A DNA stretch of 40,868 nucleotides from Burkholderiales bacterium (GTDB taxonomy: Bacteria > Pseudomonadota > Gammaproteobacteria > Burkholderiales > Burkholderiaceae_C): positions 1 through 40,868 of the forward strand of contig JAFLDE010000028.1 in assembly GCA_017302655.1 (NCBI GenBank), written 5' to 3'. Under the pieces are notes generated by a model. That model had not been told where the DNA came from. It was given only the letters and a program-made list of their open reading frames with translations, and ran no database searches. Each line of letters opens with the position of its first letter. Position 1 is the first letter of the stretch. A program made the position numbers and the translations under genes. Of this stretch, positions 1 through 3,077 are shown one piece after another.

Positions 1-231
1 ATGAGCCGGCGCGGCAACTGCCACGACAACGCGGTGGCCGAGAGCTTCTTCCAACTGCTCAAGCGCGAGCGCGTGCGCCGGCAGATCTATGCGACGCGCG
101 AAGACGCCAAGTCCGACGTCTTCAACTACATCGAGATGTTCTACAACCCGACACGGCGACACTCGAACAACGACGGGCTATCCCCAGCGGCGTTCGAGCA
201 GCGCCATTCCCAGGGGCTCACGGGTGTCTAG
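1..231 (+). CDS. IS3-family transposase (OrfB), C-terminal part only
   Basis: This is the last 76 residues of an rve/DDE integrase-type transposase. The stretch DNAVAESFFQLLKRE carries the final catalytic Glu of the DDE triad, with the Lys seven residues later that is usual for IS3-family OrfB. It ends with the typical FYNPTRRHSNNDGLSPAAFE tail. The first ATG of the window is internal to the protein, and the N-terminal part lies outside. The IS should end about 18 bp past the stop codon, near position 249 (the sequence there reads GGCGATTCA). Directly beyond that, an unrelated TPR reading frame begins in mid-protein, so this element has truncated that gene. Family assignment is confident; the exact IS name cannot be given. 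Confidence 0.9.
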   Translation: MSRRGNCHDNAVAESFFQLLKRERVRRQIYATREDAKSDVFNYIEMFYNPTRRHSNNDGLSPAAFEQRHSQGLTGV

Positions 232-249
232 GAAACCCGGGGCGATTCA
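232..249 (+). mobile_element. Probable right end of the IS3-family element
   Basis: The stretch after the transposase stop (AAACCCGGGGCGATTCA) looks like the terminal repeat of many IS3-family elements, which commonly end in CA. In-frame TPR-protein sequence (TLGPNINNPS) resumes just after it, which fixes the edge to within a few bases. The left end is outside the window, so neither the matching inverted repeat nor the target duplication can be checked. Confidence 0.5.
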
Positions 250-621
250 CGCTGGGCCCGAACATCAACAACCCGTCGCGCGGGCCGGAGCGCGAGATCC
301 GCCGCTATGTGGCGCTCGCCCAGCAGGCGGCCGCCGCTTCGCCGGGGGCGGCATCGCCGCTGGAGCGGGCGCTGATCCAGGCCATGGCGGTGCGCTACGG
401 CCGCGCCGAGGCGCAGGCGCAGAAGCTCTACGAGGCGCAGGGCAGCGCGATGTGCACGAGCCGCAAGAGCGATCGAAAGGTCGACCCGCAGGAGCTGGCC
501 TATGCGGCGGCCATGCGCGATGTGCTGCAGCAGTTCCCCGCGGACCCGGACGCCGTCGCCCTGTATGCCGACGCGGTGATGAGCACCCTGCCCTGGGACT
601 GGTGGGACAGGCAGACCGGGT

Positions 622-647
622 AGGGCCTGCTAACGCTACGGGAAGCC
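622..647 (+). repeat. Left terminal inverted repeat of element 1
   Basis: This 26-bp arm is perfectly complementary to 865-890. Its first bases, with the preceding T, form the TAG stop codon that interrupts the TPR frame. Confidence 0.9.
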
Positions 648-864
648 GCGCGAACGGGTCTGGCCGGTCGCCAGCCTAGGCGCCGGCGTGAAGGTGGATG
701 CGCATCCACCGAACGGCGGCAACAACGGATGACGGCCGGCCAGACCCGTTCCCTTCGGGTTGCCACCAGACAAGGGCGCCCACTTCGTTGCGAAGCTCGC
801 TGGGGCCCGCAGCCCCAGCTTCCCTTCGCGCCTCGTTGGCGCCCTTTCTGGATGGCAACGCGCT

Positions 865-890
865 GGCTTCCCGTAGCGTTAGCAGGCCCT
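865..890 (-). repeat. Right terminal inverted repeat of element 1
   Basis: This is the exact reverse complement of 622-647. It ends in GCAGGCCCT, directly before TPR sequence resumes. Confidence 0.9.
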
Positions 891-1142
891 CGCCGAACGG
901 CGAGGTGGGCGAGGTGATGACCCGCCTGGCGGCCACCAGCCGCCAGCACCCGCAGCACACCGGCGCCCTGCACTTCTATGTGCACGTGGCCGAGCATTCG
1001 CCCGACCCGCGCCAGGCCGAGCCGGCCGCCGACGCGCTGGCCACGGTGGCGCCGGAGTCGCCGCACCTGGTGCACATGGGCAGCCATATCTACAAGCAGC
1101 TTGGCCGCTTTGCCGACGGCAGCCGCGCCAACGAGCAGGCCT

Positions 1143-1169
1143 AGGGAAGCGCTGAACCGGTCCCTGTGG
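1143..1169 (+). repeat. Left terminal inverted repeat of element 2
   Basis: This 27-bp arm is perfectly complementary to 1391-1417. It differs in sequence from the terminal repeat of element 1 apart from the leading AGGG. Confidence 0.9.
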
Positions 1170-1390
1170 AGCGCGTTTGCGAGAGAACCGGCCGGCTCGT
1201 AGACGGCGCGCGAAGGTCGGACTCGCCGTCCGACTGCCGAGCGCGCCAACGACCGAGCAGGCCGGTTATTTCGCAAACCCTTCGGGCCATCGACTTTTCG
1301 GGCGATGGCCGGCGTTGCGAACCTTGCCCAGGCGCGAGCCTGGGCGGCGGCTCGCGCCTTGGCCAGTCATCCCGAAAAGTCGCGGCGCGC

Positions 1391-1417
1391 CCACAGGGAC
1401 CGGTTCAGCGCTTCCCT
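1391..1417 (-). repeat. Right terminal inverted repeat of element 2
   Basis: This is the exact reverse complement of 1143-1169. TPR coding sequence (LTVQKRF) resumes at its end. Confidence 0.9.
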
Positions 1418-2342
1418 GACCGTGCAGAAGCGCTTCGACGCCCTGCTGCAGGCGCAGGGCGTGGAGCGCAGCGGCCGCTGGGACGGCCACCACCTGCACT
1501 TCCTCTGGTACGCGGCGCTGATGGAGGGGCGCAGCAGCCTGTCGCTGCAGACGGCGCGCGACTACGCGCAGCGCTTCGGCAAGGCCAGCGGCAGCGCGGG
1601 CGCCTACGCGCAGCTGCTGCCCTGGGTCAGCCTGGTGCGCCTGCAGCGCTGGGACGCGGTGCTGGCCGAGCCGGTGCCAGCCGCGCCGGCGGGGCCCGGC
1701 CAGGGCGCGGAGCTGCTGCAGGTCTATGTGGCCCACGCGCGCGGCCTGGCGCAGCTGCATACCGGCCAGCTGGCGCTGGCCAAGGCCGAACTCGCCACCG
1801 TGGAGCGCCTGCAGCCCCTGCTCAAGGACGCCACGCTCTGGGGCGAGAAGAAGCCGCCCAAGATGGCGACGCTGCTGCAGACCAGCTTGGCCGGCGCCAT
1901 CGCCCGCGCCGAGGGGCGGCACGAGGCCGCGATCGCGCTGCTGCGCCAAGCCGCCGATCTCGACGACGAACTCGGCAACGACCCGCCGATGCTTGGCGGC
2001 GGCGCCCGCCTGACGCTGGCCGGCGCACTGCTCGCCGCTGGCCAGCTGGACGAGGCCGAGCGCGAGATCCAGGAAGCGCAGCGCCTGAACGGCCCCAGCA
2101 CCTGGGTGCACCTGGCGCTGGCGCAGCTGGCCGAGCGGCGCGGTGCGCAGGACGAGGGCAGCCGGCAGGTGGCGCTGGCGAAGGCGGCGTGGCGGGCGGC
2201 GGATGGGGCGGAGCTGCCGAGGCTGTAGCGCGGGGCGAAAGGGCAGGGCGCCTGCTCTGCCTTCAGCAGCAGTTCGGGCCGTTCAGGCAGCTCTCGCGTG
2301 GAGGACCGCGACGCCCGCCGCCGCGTAGGGAGTGGCGTGCCC

Positions 2343-3077
2343 TCACAGGGCGTAGCTCAGGCTCACGTCCAGGTTGGTTTCGGCGCTCGGGTCGGTGCTG
2401 CTGAACGGGTAACCGCGCTCGTAGCTGGCGCGCACCTTCACACCCAGATGCTCACTGATCCGGGTGTGAAGGCTGCTCTCCAGGGTGCGGTAACGCTCCC
2501 CACGGCTTTGTTCGTGTGCGAACTCCAGGCGCCACTCGACGCCGGGGCGGAGCTTCCAACGCGCCTGCGCGGCGATGGTGCCCAGGCCCTCACGCGCCGT
2601 GGCGCCGCCCTCGACGCGCGCCACGCGGTAGCCGGCGCCTGCCTCCAGGGTCAAAAGCAGGGGTTCGACGGGCCGAAAGCGTCCGCCGAAGCCAGCGCGC
2701 AAGGCCTTGGCCTGCACGTAATAGCCACTGGCGTTGCGCCGCCAGCGTGGGGACACGTAGCCGAACAGTGCCTGGTCCTGAAGGTCGTGGCGGTACTTAA
2801 GGCGCAGGTCGTAGCGATCGCGGTCGAGTTCGGCCTGGTTGCCGGGGATCTTCACGTACTCGCGGTCCAGGTCGAACTCCAGGCTCAATTCGCTGCGCTG
2901 GTGGCGCCGGCTGAGGTCGGCGCTGGCCGTGTAGCGGCGGGTCTTGGACTCCGAATCGCTGAGCTGCAGGCCCAGCGCGAGGTCGCCGGTCCAAGCCTGG
3001 ACTGGCGTGGCTGCCTCGGCATGGGCCGCGAGATGGGCCGCGCCGACCCAGCACAGGAGCAGGGTTCTGGTGATCAT
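2343..3077 (-). CDS. DUF481-like outer-membrane protein
   Basis: This 244-residue protein starts at MITRTLLLCWVGAAHLAAHAEA, a clear Sec signal peptide with an Ala-x-Ala-like cleavage site. The mature part is made of alternating amphipathic strands such as YDLRLKYRHDL, FGYVSPRWRRN and VEWRLEFAHEQSRG, and it ends in an aromatic/hydrophobic strand (DVSLSYAL). This is the pattern of the salt-induced outer-membrane protein family (YdiY/DUF481). The frame is open 71 codons further upstream, but that extension lacks protein character and would run into the divergent neighbour. It is divergent from the L,D-transpeptidase gene with 79 bp between starts, so the promoters share a short region. Its function is unknown; a role in envelope stress is only a guess. 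Confidence 0.75.
   Translation of the reverse strand: MITRTLLLCWVGAAHLAAHAEAATPVQAWTGDLALGLQLSDSESKTRRYTASADLSRRHQRSELSLEFDLDREYVKIPGNQAELDRDRYDLRLKYRHDLQDQALFGYVSPRWRRNASGYYVQAKALRAGFGGRFRPVEPLLLTLEAGAGYRVARVEGGATAREGLGTIAAQARWKLRPGVEWRLEFAHEQSRGERYRTLESSLHTRISEHLGVKVRASYERGYPFSSTDPSAETNLDVSLSYAL

Follow-up and report, generated by a model that had tools for sequence, protein, structure and literature searches.

The two elements and their host gene

The window analysed here is the whole 40,868-nucleotide stretch (positions 1 to 40,868, forward strand) of contig JAFLDE010000028.1, which belongs to the assembly GCA_017302655.1 of a Burkholderiales bacterium. Positions 1-231 hold a C-terminal fragment of an IS3-family transposase, directly upstream of a reading frame that is broken by two elements with a palindromic layout (Table 1), and this transposase piece may have removed the start of the host gene. 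When the pieces of that gene were searched separately, the 3' piece was found to encode tetratricopeptide repeats, and the two upstream pieces gave no family match.

Table 1 Features of the host gene and the two elements, in window coordinates (R1, covariance model described below)
Feature	Position	Strand	Sequence or remark	Basis
Host reading frame, start putative, broken by both elements	240..2228	+		reading frames
Element 1, 269 bp	622..890	.	AGGG..CCCT; terminal repeat type GGGCCTGYTAACRCTA	inverted repeat search, fold, R1 (238.9 bits)
Element 1, left terminal inverted repeat/terminal stem	622..647	+		inverted repeat search
Element 1, arm A	652..751	+		fold, repeat search
Element 1, arm A internal-loop motif halves	676-683, 719-727		CTAGGCGC (676-683), GCAACAACG (719-727)	
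Element 1, junction hairpin between arms	751..759	+	CCCTTCGGG	sequence
Element 1, arm B, limits approximate	758..862	+		fold
Element 1, arm B inverted motif	786-791, 828-835		CGTTGC (786-791), GCGCCTCG (828-835)	
Element 1, right terminal inverted repeat	865..890	-		inverted repeat search
Element 2, 275 bp	1143..1417	.	AGGG..CCCT; terminal repeat type GGGAAGCGCTGAACMRGTCC	fold, repeat search, R1
Element 2, left terminal inverted repeat	1143..1169	+	27/27 complementary	
Element 2, junction hairpin	1278..1286	+	CCCTTCGGG	sequence
Element 2, downstream arm tip with conserved internal-loop motif	1313..1361	+	CGTTGC (1313-1318), GCGCCTTG (1354-1361)	
Element 2, right terminal inverted repeat	1391..1417	-		inverted repeat search

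Two elements of about 270 bp had originally been predicted at 621-890 and 1142-1417, and both are present with slightly refined limits. Their outermost bases had been read as TAGGG..CCCT, the usual form in the family being GGG..CCC or AGGG..CCCT. The perfect terminal repeats of 26-27 bp that had been proposed hold for element 2, for which the inverted repeat search returned 1143-1169/1391-1417 (27 nt, 100%); in element 1, the search returned a longer, imperfect pair (617-647/865-895, 31 nt, 94%). Immediately interior to the terminal repeats lies GCGCG, and an identical 9-mer separates the arms of both elements, each as described in the original prediction.

Folding predicts the two expected hairpin arms in each element. 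With RNA parameters, element 1 reaches -203.1 kcal/mol (z -16.2) and element 2 reaches -206.9 kcal/mol (z -14.5), values equalled by none of 200 shuffles in either case, and DNA parameters give z scores of -15.0 and -13.3, respectively. The order of parts is shared, consisting of a terminal stem, an arm, a tiny CCC..GGG hairpin formed by CCCTTCGGG, and a second arm, and R1 scores element 2 best on the minus strand when element 1 is on the plus strand. Besides these two, all R1 matches over the window have E values of 0.32 or worse. Elements 1 and 2 are diverged members of one family.

Copies and distribution

Within the genome that contains the window, BLAST finds 28 matches to element 1 and 20 to element 2, partial and self-matches counted; full-length relatives of element 1 there are 76-81% identical to it, and element 2 has one 90% identical full-length relative elsewhere. 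Two other genomes of the same genus (G003 and G004) carry many full-length relatives.

The covariance model R1 was derived from alignment A1, which comprises 40 full-length copies aligned with MAFFT, namely 38 of the 45 oriented copies together with L105 and L115. It omits near-duplicates (L004, L008, L067), longer copies (L022, L023) and shortened ones (L070, L088), and also L090. Alignments built on a model are biased towards structure, which A1 is not; the elements on which R1 was trained themselves hold the loop motif described below. A covariance search had been proposed as a check, and it returned many copies from related and distant genomes. Of 399 genomes sampled from the order, 145, or about one third, gave R1 matches at E 0.001 or better with strict filters and at most four candidates scored per genome; they represent 71 of 159 genera. 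The corresponding count for the phylum is 64 of 398 genomes (the window's own genome included in both surveys). The same order accounts for 13 of these 64, the rest of the class for 16, and other classes for 35.

Among the loci listed by a motif-pattern scan of named genomes and by a scan of viral contigs, 85 were scored with R1, all of them chosen by motif, and 82 match; L220, L234 (labelled Staskawiczbacteria) and L320 gave no R1 match. Among the matches listed are records from Pseudomonas, Stutzerimonas, Delftia, Acidovorax, Achromobacter and Herbaspirillum, as well as Novosphingobium, Lysobacter and Thioalkalivibrio. Scan loci also come from metagenome-assembled genomes labelled Acidobacteriota, Elusimicrobia and Spartobacteria, the contigs of which may be misbinned. 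For the copies on plasmids of Azotobacter, P. aeruginosa and Halomonas, the gene table, which is incomplete, lists no overlapping feature, and a Variovorax plasmid has one copy at a site where its record lists no genes. Plasmid searches with three other element queries gave one match or none, and a phage search with an element query found none. Two elements with GGCTCATATCTTAT ends (L317 and L318) lie on one IMG/VR contig, IMGVR_UViG_3300022695_000189, so the elements may be borne by phages or proviruses.

The elements are thus short and multicopy, as is usual for miniature inverted-repeat transposable elements (MITEs), judging from the copies in the window's own genome and from the R1 survey. 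Their median length is 266 bp, with 119 of 129 collected elements between 259 and 275 bp, and, judged from the palindromic layout, they have no coding capacity.

Shortened, lengthened and unusual forms are also found. Coreless hairpins of 46-48 bp that consist of the ends only occur at L125 (389-435), L126, L127 and L143, in genomes that also hold full elements. At L129, L139, L140 and L141, approximately 80 extra palindromic bases sit at the tip of arm B, as if hairpins had been inserted into hairpin loops, and some of these copies are without arm A. One-armed forms exist, and one genome (G569) contains four copies of an element in which one arm is complete and keeps the motif and the other is reduced to a stub. 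Given the one-armed and end-only forms, one of them in four copies, a second full arm appears to be dispensable.

Pairing maintained through sequence change

The claim that stem pairing is held by paired substitutions is borne out by A1. In this alignment, 93.1% of the pair cells are standard pairs, a share that drops to 36-44% if the partners are displaced against each other by one to three columns, and both sides have changed in 84 of 98 pairs, amounting to 785 two-sided cells across the 40 copies. None of 500 shuffles reached any of five covariation measures. Pairing is high in every large helix, the share of paired cells being 92.6% for the terminal stem, 89-98% for the arm A helices, and 94-96% for arm B.

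The share of changed pairs that are two-sided depends on distance. Between copies at least 97% identical it is 0/13, and it then rises through 13/98, 66/171, 589/1293 and 1091/1922 to 10060/14068 with increasing divergence, counts that refer to pairs of copies and are therefore not independent. The rise suggests that young copies decay on one side, and that lasting lineages are re-paired. At 88-97% identity, two-sided changes amount to 2/70 in arm B, 33/93 in arm A and 35/81 in the outer stem, and the low share in arm B speaks against a uniform upkeep of pairing. Most runs of two-sided changes (64 of 70) are single pairs, few longer tracts being expected at such distances.

A strand test based on mismatched cells was also considered as a sign of constraint at the DNA level. 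G.T cells outnumber A.C cells by 157 to 80 in A1, with 59 of the G.T cells from pairs 50-119 and 174-221; the counts are 291 and 176 on one strand and 267 and 193 on the other in a wide set of 122 elements, and 314 and 156 in 79 rows of alignment A3. This argument was dropped, given that the layout of the element is its own reverse complement and the test consequently fails to discriminate between RNA and DNA.

A conserved core with mirrored loops

The terminal stem, arm A, CCCnnnGGG and arm B together make up the core, which has the form of a four-way junction. Conservation was measured across 38 loci from further genomes of the order and the phylum, drawn from 43 that had not been chosen by motif (a further 56 motif-chosen loci were aligned too and left uncounted). 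At a median pairwise identity of 0.49, 44 positions are at least 85% conserved, and they are the outermost end bases, the CCCnnnGGG junction and an internal-loop motif. The 9-mer shared by the two window elements represents a general feature, its CCC and GGG being 97-100% conserved and its three loop bases variable in the 38 loci.

At the tip of arm A, the two sides of the loop motif read CnAGGCG and GCAACnnnG, and the tip of arm B carries the reverse complement. Conserved bases that are predicted to be unpaired include A56 (.95), G58 (.89), C59 (.95), A100 (.95), A101 (1.0), T167 (.97), C210 (.95) and T211 (1.0), and mean column identity is 0.65 for unpaired and 0.61 for paired positions of the 38 loci. 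Among 54 elements not chosen by motif, each half of the strict motif is found in 37-43 and all four halves in 24, compared with two to three per half and none with all four in shuffles. Because of the inverted motif symmetry of the two arms, each strand reads alike, and for most elements R1 gives a match on either strand. The loop motif is a candidate recognition site for a cell factor.

Exchangeable ends and insertion sites

Several end types are terminal inverted repeats of insertion sequences that encode DUF4096 proteins (IS5 family, IS427-like), which makes the elements look like non-autonomous transposable elements. In G034, an 825-bp insertion sequence located where a contig ends carries the GGGCCTGTTAACACTA end, with identity over 17 bp, and an insertion sequence in G020 has the same end with two mismatches at each end. 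The insertion sequence of G034 encodes DUF4096 and DDE domains in two frames and has about 17 bp of end in common with the elements, after which the two diverge. The outer 17 bp of the left end of element 1 differ at two positions from AGGGCCTGTTAACACTA, an insertion sequence end in G034. Insertion sequences in G238 have ends GAGCGTGTTATGAACTT and GAGCCTGTTTACGATCTT, resembling element ends elsewhere. Sharing of ends with an autonomous insertion sequence, a MITE feature, is thus found for the types of G034, G020 and G238.

The search for such partners covered 15 element-bearing genomes, seven of which have a DUF4096 protein. Among 22 DUF4096 loci listed, three have element-like ends (all in G238), three have other ends, and the remainder have no convincing ends; matching ends were found in none of the other six genomes with DUF4096 matches. 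Close relatives of the L092 transposase were sought in nine genomes and found in two; G003, G004, G012 and the genome that contains the window, all of which bear elements, gave none.

One core can be found with different ends. In such swaps, the cores are 89-90% identical and the ends 51-53%, once within a single genome (L048/L076), and the converse also occurs, with ends 98% identical around a core of 56% identity. As judged by alignment, the swapped part is roughly the outer 22 bp, and the inner terminal stem stays, so the outer 20 bp or so appear to be exchangeable. Many different end types are combined with the junction and tip motifs. Three of them, GGGCCTG.., GGGAAGC.. and GGGTCTG.., coexist in the genome that contains the window (G000, loci L001 and L036), the end types of which include GGGAAGCGCTGA.. 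and GGGTCTGTTGACC...

That the family is mobile, as the original prediction held, is supported at the one site where a copy was tested, which also provides the insertion polymorphism typical of MITEs. In G489, an element lies between two same-strand reading frames, and it is absent between the same flanks in all 24 congeners, the flanks being at most 31 bp apart. Base by base, the empty site reads CTAG in 12 of 23 congeners, TTAG in seven, and neither in four. In the filled copy, the element is preceded by GT and followed by TA, and the GCG after it is missing; with the flanks altered in this way, no duplication can be read at this site. A search of six genomes of the genus for an empty site of the window's host gene returned, apart from the window, no more than three fragments of 36-47 bp, a search of plasmids returned nothing, and the Azotobacter and P. 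aeruginosa plasmids gave no clean empty site.

The flanks have a pattern of their own. In 206 flanks of 103 elements, the adjoining base is A in 172, the second base is T in 131, and the third is a pyrimidine in 186, giving Y-T-A outside the left end and its mirror image outside the right, a pattern that favours YTAR or CTAG. TA is present on both sides of 35 of the 103 elements; neither window copy has TA on its right flank. Exact flank repeats of 2 bp occur in 37 and of 3 bp in 15 of the 103, none of them has an exact repeat of 5 bp (3 of 129 if boundaries are shifted by 3), and 47 of 129 have no flank repeat of 2 bp or more. CTAG is duplicated in five of 26 elements with other end types.

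Interpretation

The elements probably form a very large superfamily of non-autonomous DNA transposons, about 265 bp long, with plug-in ends, a selected folded core, and mobilisation in trans. A resident IS transposase would move them through their borrowed ends, and the core would be active as nucleic acid in folded form, most probably as a hairpin or cruciform that arises when the DNA is single-stranded. A factor common to many bacteria may bind the core at its two loops and thereby aid spread, and foldback templating could let both ends change together upon the adoption of a new transposase. We lean to DNA over RNA, since pairing decays in copies at single sites and is upheld in the lineage that spreads.

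For the fuller account, the chances seem evenly balanced. It describes an ancient folded parasite of about 265 bp in Pseudomonadota and some other phyla, with a four-way-junction core, ends taken from resident DDE transposases, and mirrored loops read by a shared cell factor; the same balance applies to the part of it that turns the plan of an ordinary MITE around, with the core conserved and the ends replaceable. As a rule, it is the ends that define a non-autonomous element, whereas here the ends are exchangeable and the shape of the interior is conserved across classes. The family would thus constitute a natural covariation experiment on what structure does in a mobile element, predict that the two mirrored internal loops are read by one common factor, and explain why genomes and plasmids contain 265-bp stretches with no annotation.

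A role as structured RNA is possible and, on the present evidence, unlikely. Here the elements would spread as MITEs and keep their fold since transcripts of either strand act as RNA, be it as mRNA stabiliser, processing site, decoy or terminator. The RNA folds are very stable, the same layout on both strands means that either direction of insertion yields the same RNA, and CCUUCGGG could form a UUCG tetraloop. The copy in G489 lies between two same-strand frames, and another extends into the end of a cobalamin riboswitch match; effects of MITEs on mRNA are described in PMC10969869 and PMC3733652. Against this, no Rfam match lies over an element in the loci tested, the one-sided changes of young copies suggest selection on the spreading lineage and not on a job at a particular site, and both window copies reside in a broken gene.

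Neutral upkeep of palindromes, by which foldback template switching (quasipalindrome correction) would restore pairing with no selection on structure, is a distinctly doubtful explanation. Such correction has been reported in E. coli and yeast; it would yield double changes from one Watson-Crick pair to another and ends that change jointly, and, if slow, it would give the same trend with age. However, it would erase the mismatched loop bases, which are 89-100% conserved at both tips at a median identity of 0.49. The complete lack of two-sided changes in the youngest pairs, the predominance of single pairs over tracts (few longer ones being expected), and the narrow spread of lengths near 266 also count against it. 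Quasipalindrome correction may help ends and stems to change together, but it fails to explain the conserved mismatches.

It is very unlikely that the elements are ordinary MITEs, that is, internal-deletion remnants of several IS5-family insertion sequences, with a core of residual IS sequence and end types unrelated by descent. Some ends do match IS5-family insertion sequences and the lengths fall in the MITE range, but the insertion sequence of G034 diverges after about 17 bp of end, no arms are present inside the few insertion sequences read (G034, G020), unrelated ends are found on one homologous core, and the junction and tip motifs occur together with many end types. Unrelated chance palindromes, for which it speaks only that the two window elements differ in sequence, are refuted by the many homologous copies and the covariation, and their probability is negligible.

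Relation to known elements

The layout had been thought to match no named family. Rfam 15 gave six matches in positions 1-3000 of the window, all below gathering scores, and two matches in 20 element loci, none of which covers an element; one is a cobalamin riboswitch, which at L175 (1360-1522) overlaps by 22 bases the left edge of an element starting at 1501. Searches of open-access papers, a body that excludes preprints and most subscription papers, returned no description of the layout or of the end sequences.

Integron attC sites conserve structure over sequence and have extrahelical bases. The elements resemble them in keeping structure over sequence, and differ in having long terminal inverted repeats and many insertion sites; the attC pattern RYYYAAC..GTTRRRY occurs in 0 of 122 elements, with 1.6 expected in shuffles. 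REP/REPIN sequences and their RAYT transposases (PMC3733652) offer a parallel in inverted hairpins, some stem mismatches and non-autonomy; the elements have long terminal inverted repeats in common with DDE insertion sequences. The REP/REPIN tags, counted anywhere in the interior, are not enriched: of 122 interiors, 20 contain GTAG (62 for shuffles) and 81 contain CGTC (84 for shuffles). Repeated stem-loops have also been catalogued in Pseudomonas, Bordetella and others by Cozzuto et al. 2008 (PMC2267715). For those genera, the published table holds no intergenic family near 265 bp; by description, Pae-2 (287 bp) and Ppu-3 (251 bp) are of similar size but located inside coding sequences, and Pae-1 is a double hairpin of 84 bp.

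Most of the MITE features tested are found in the elements. As published accounts describe them, MITEs such as Correia/NEMIS, ERIC, RUP and YPAL are likewise small and non-coding, with terminal inverted repeats, stem-loops and often a flanking TA. Bacterial MITEs are known mostly from single genera or small groups of related genera, and each has one end type. In contrast, the elements combine one core with many end types, extend through the phylum and beyond, and have a four-way junction and mirrored loops.

The end types in G034, G020 and G238 are common to the elements and the IS427 group of the IS5 family. The IS427-like insertion sequences found here measure 810-874 bp and are assigned by DUF4096, frames and size, as distinct from an ISfinder comparison. 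Published members of the group are 832-865 bp long, have two reading frames, and in most cases duplicate 2 bp (PMC3281130), and 2-bp duplications for the group also appear in PMC4133298. Unlike them, the elements are non-coding, and only the outer ends are common to both.

The nearest published look-alikes in size and behaviour are the TIMEs, Tn3-derived miniature elements (PMC4133298), which are compared here by their published length, ends, duplication and folds. TIMEs have a near-constant length of 262 bp, a less conserved core with short conserved stretches, and similar folds; they encode no transposase, and their movement has been captured with a trap plasmid (PMC4133298). They differ in their 38-bp Tn3-type ends, their target duplication of 5-6 bp, and their usual presence as single copies (PMC4133298). 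The ends listed for the elements match those of the IS5 type or other ends, and their exact 5-bp flank repeats are absent or rare, as given above. Published Mfold energies of TIMEs are about -70 to -115 kcal/mol, against folding energies of -138 to -211 kcal/mol for 28 elements.
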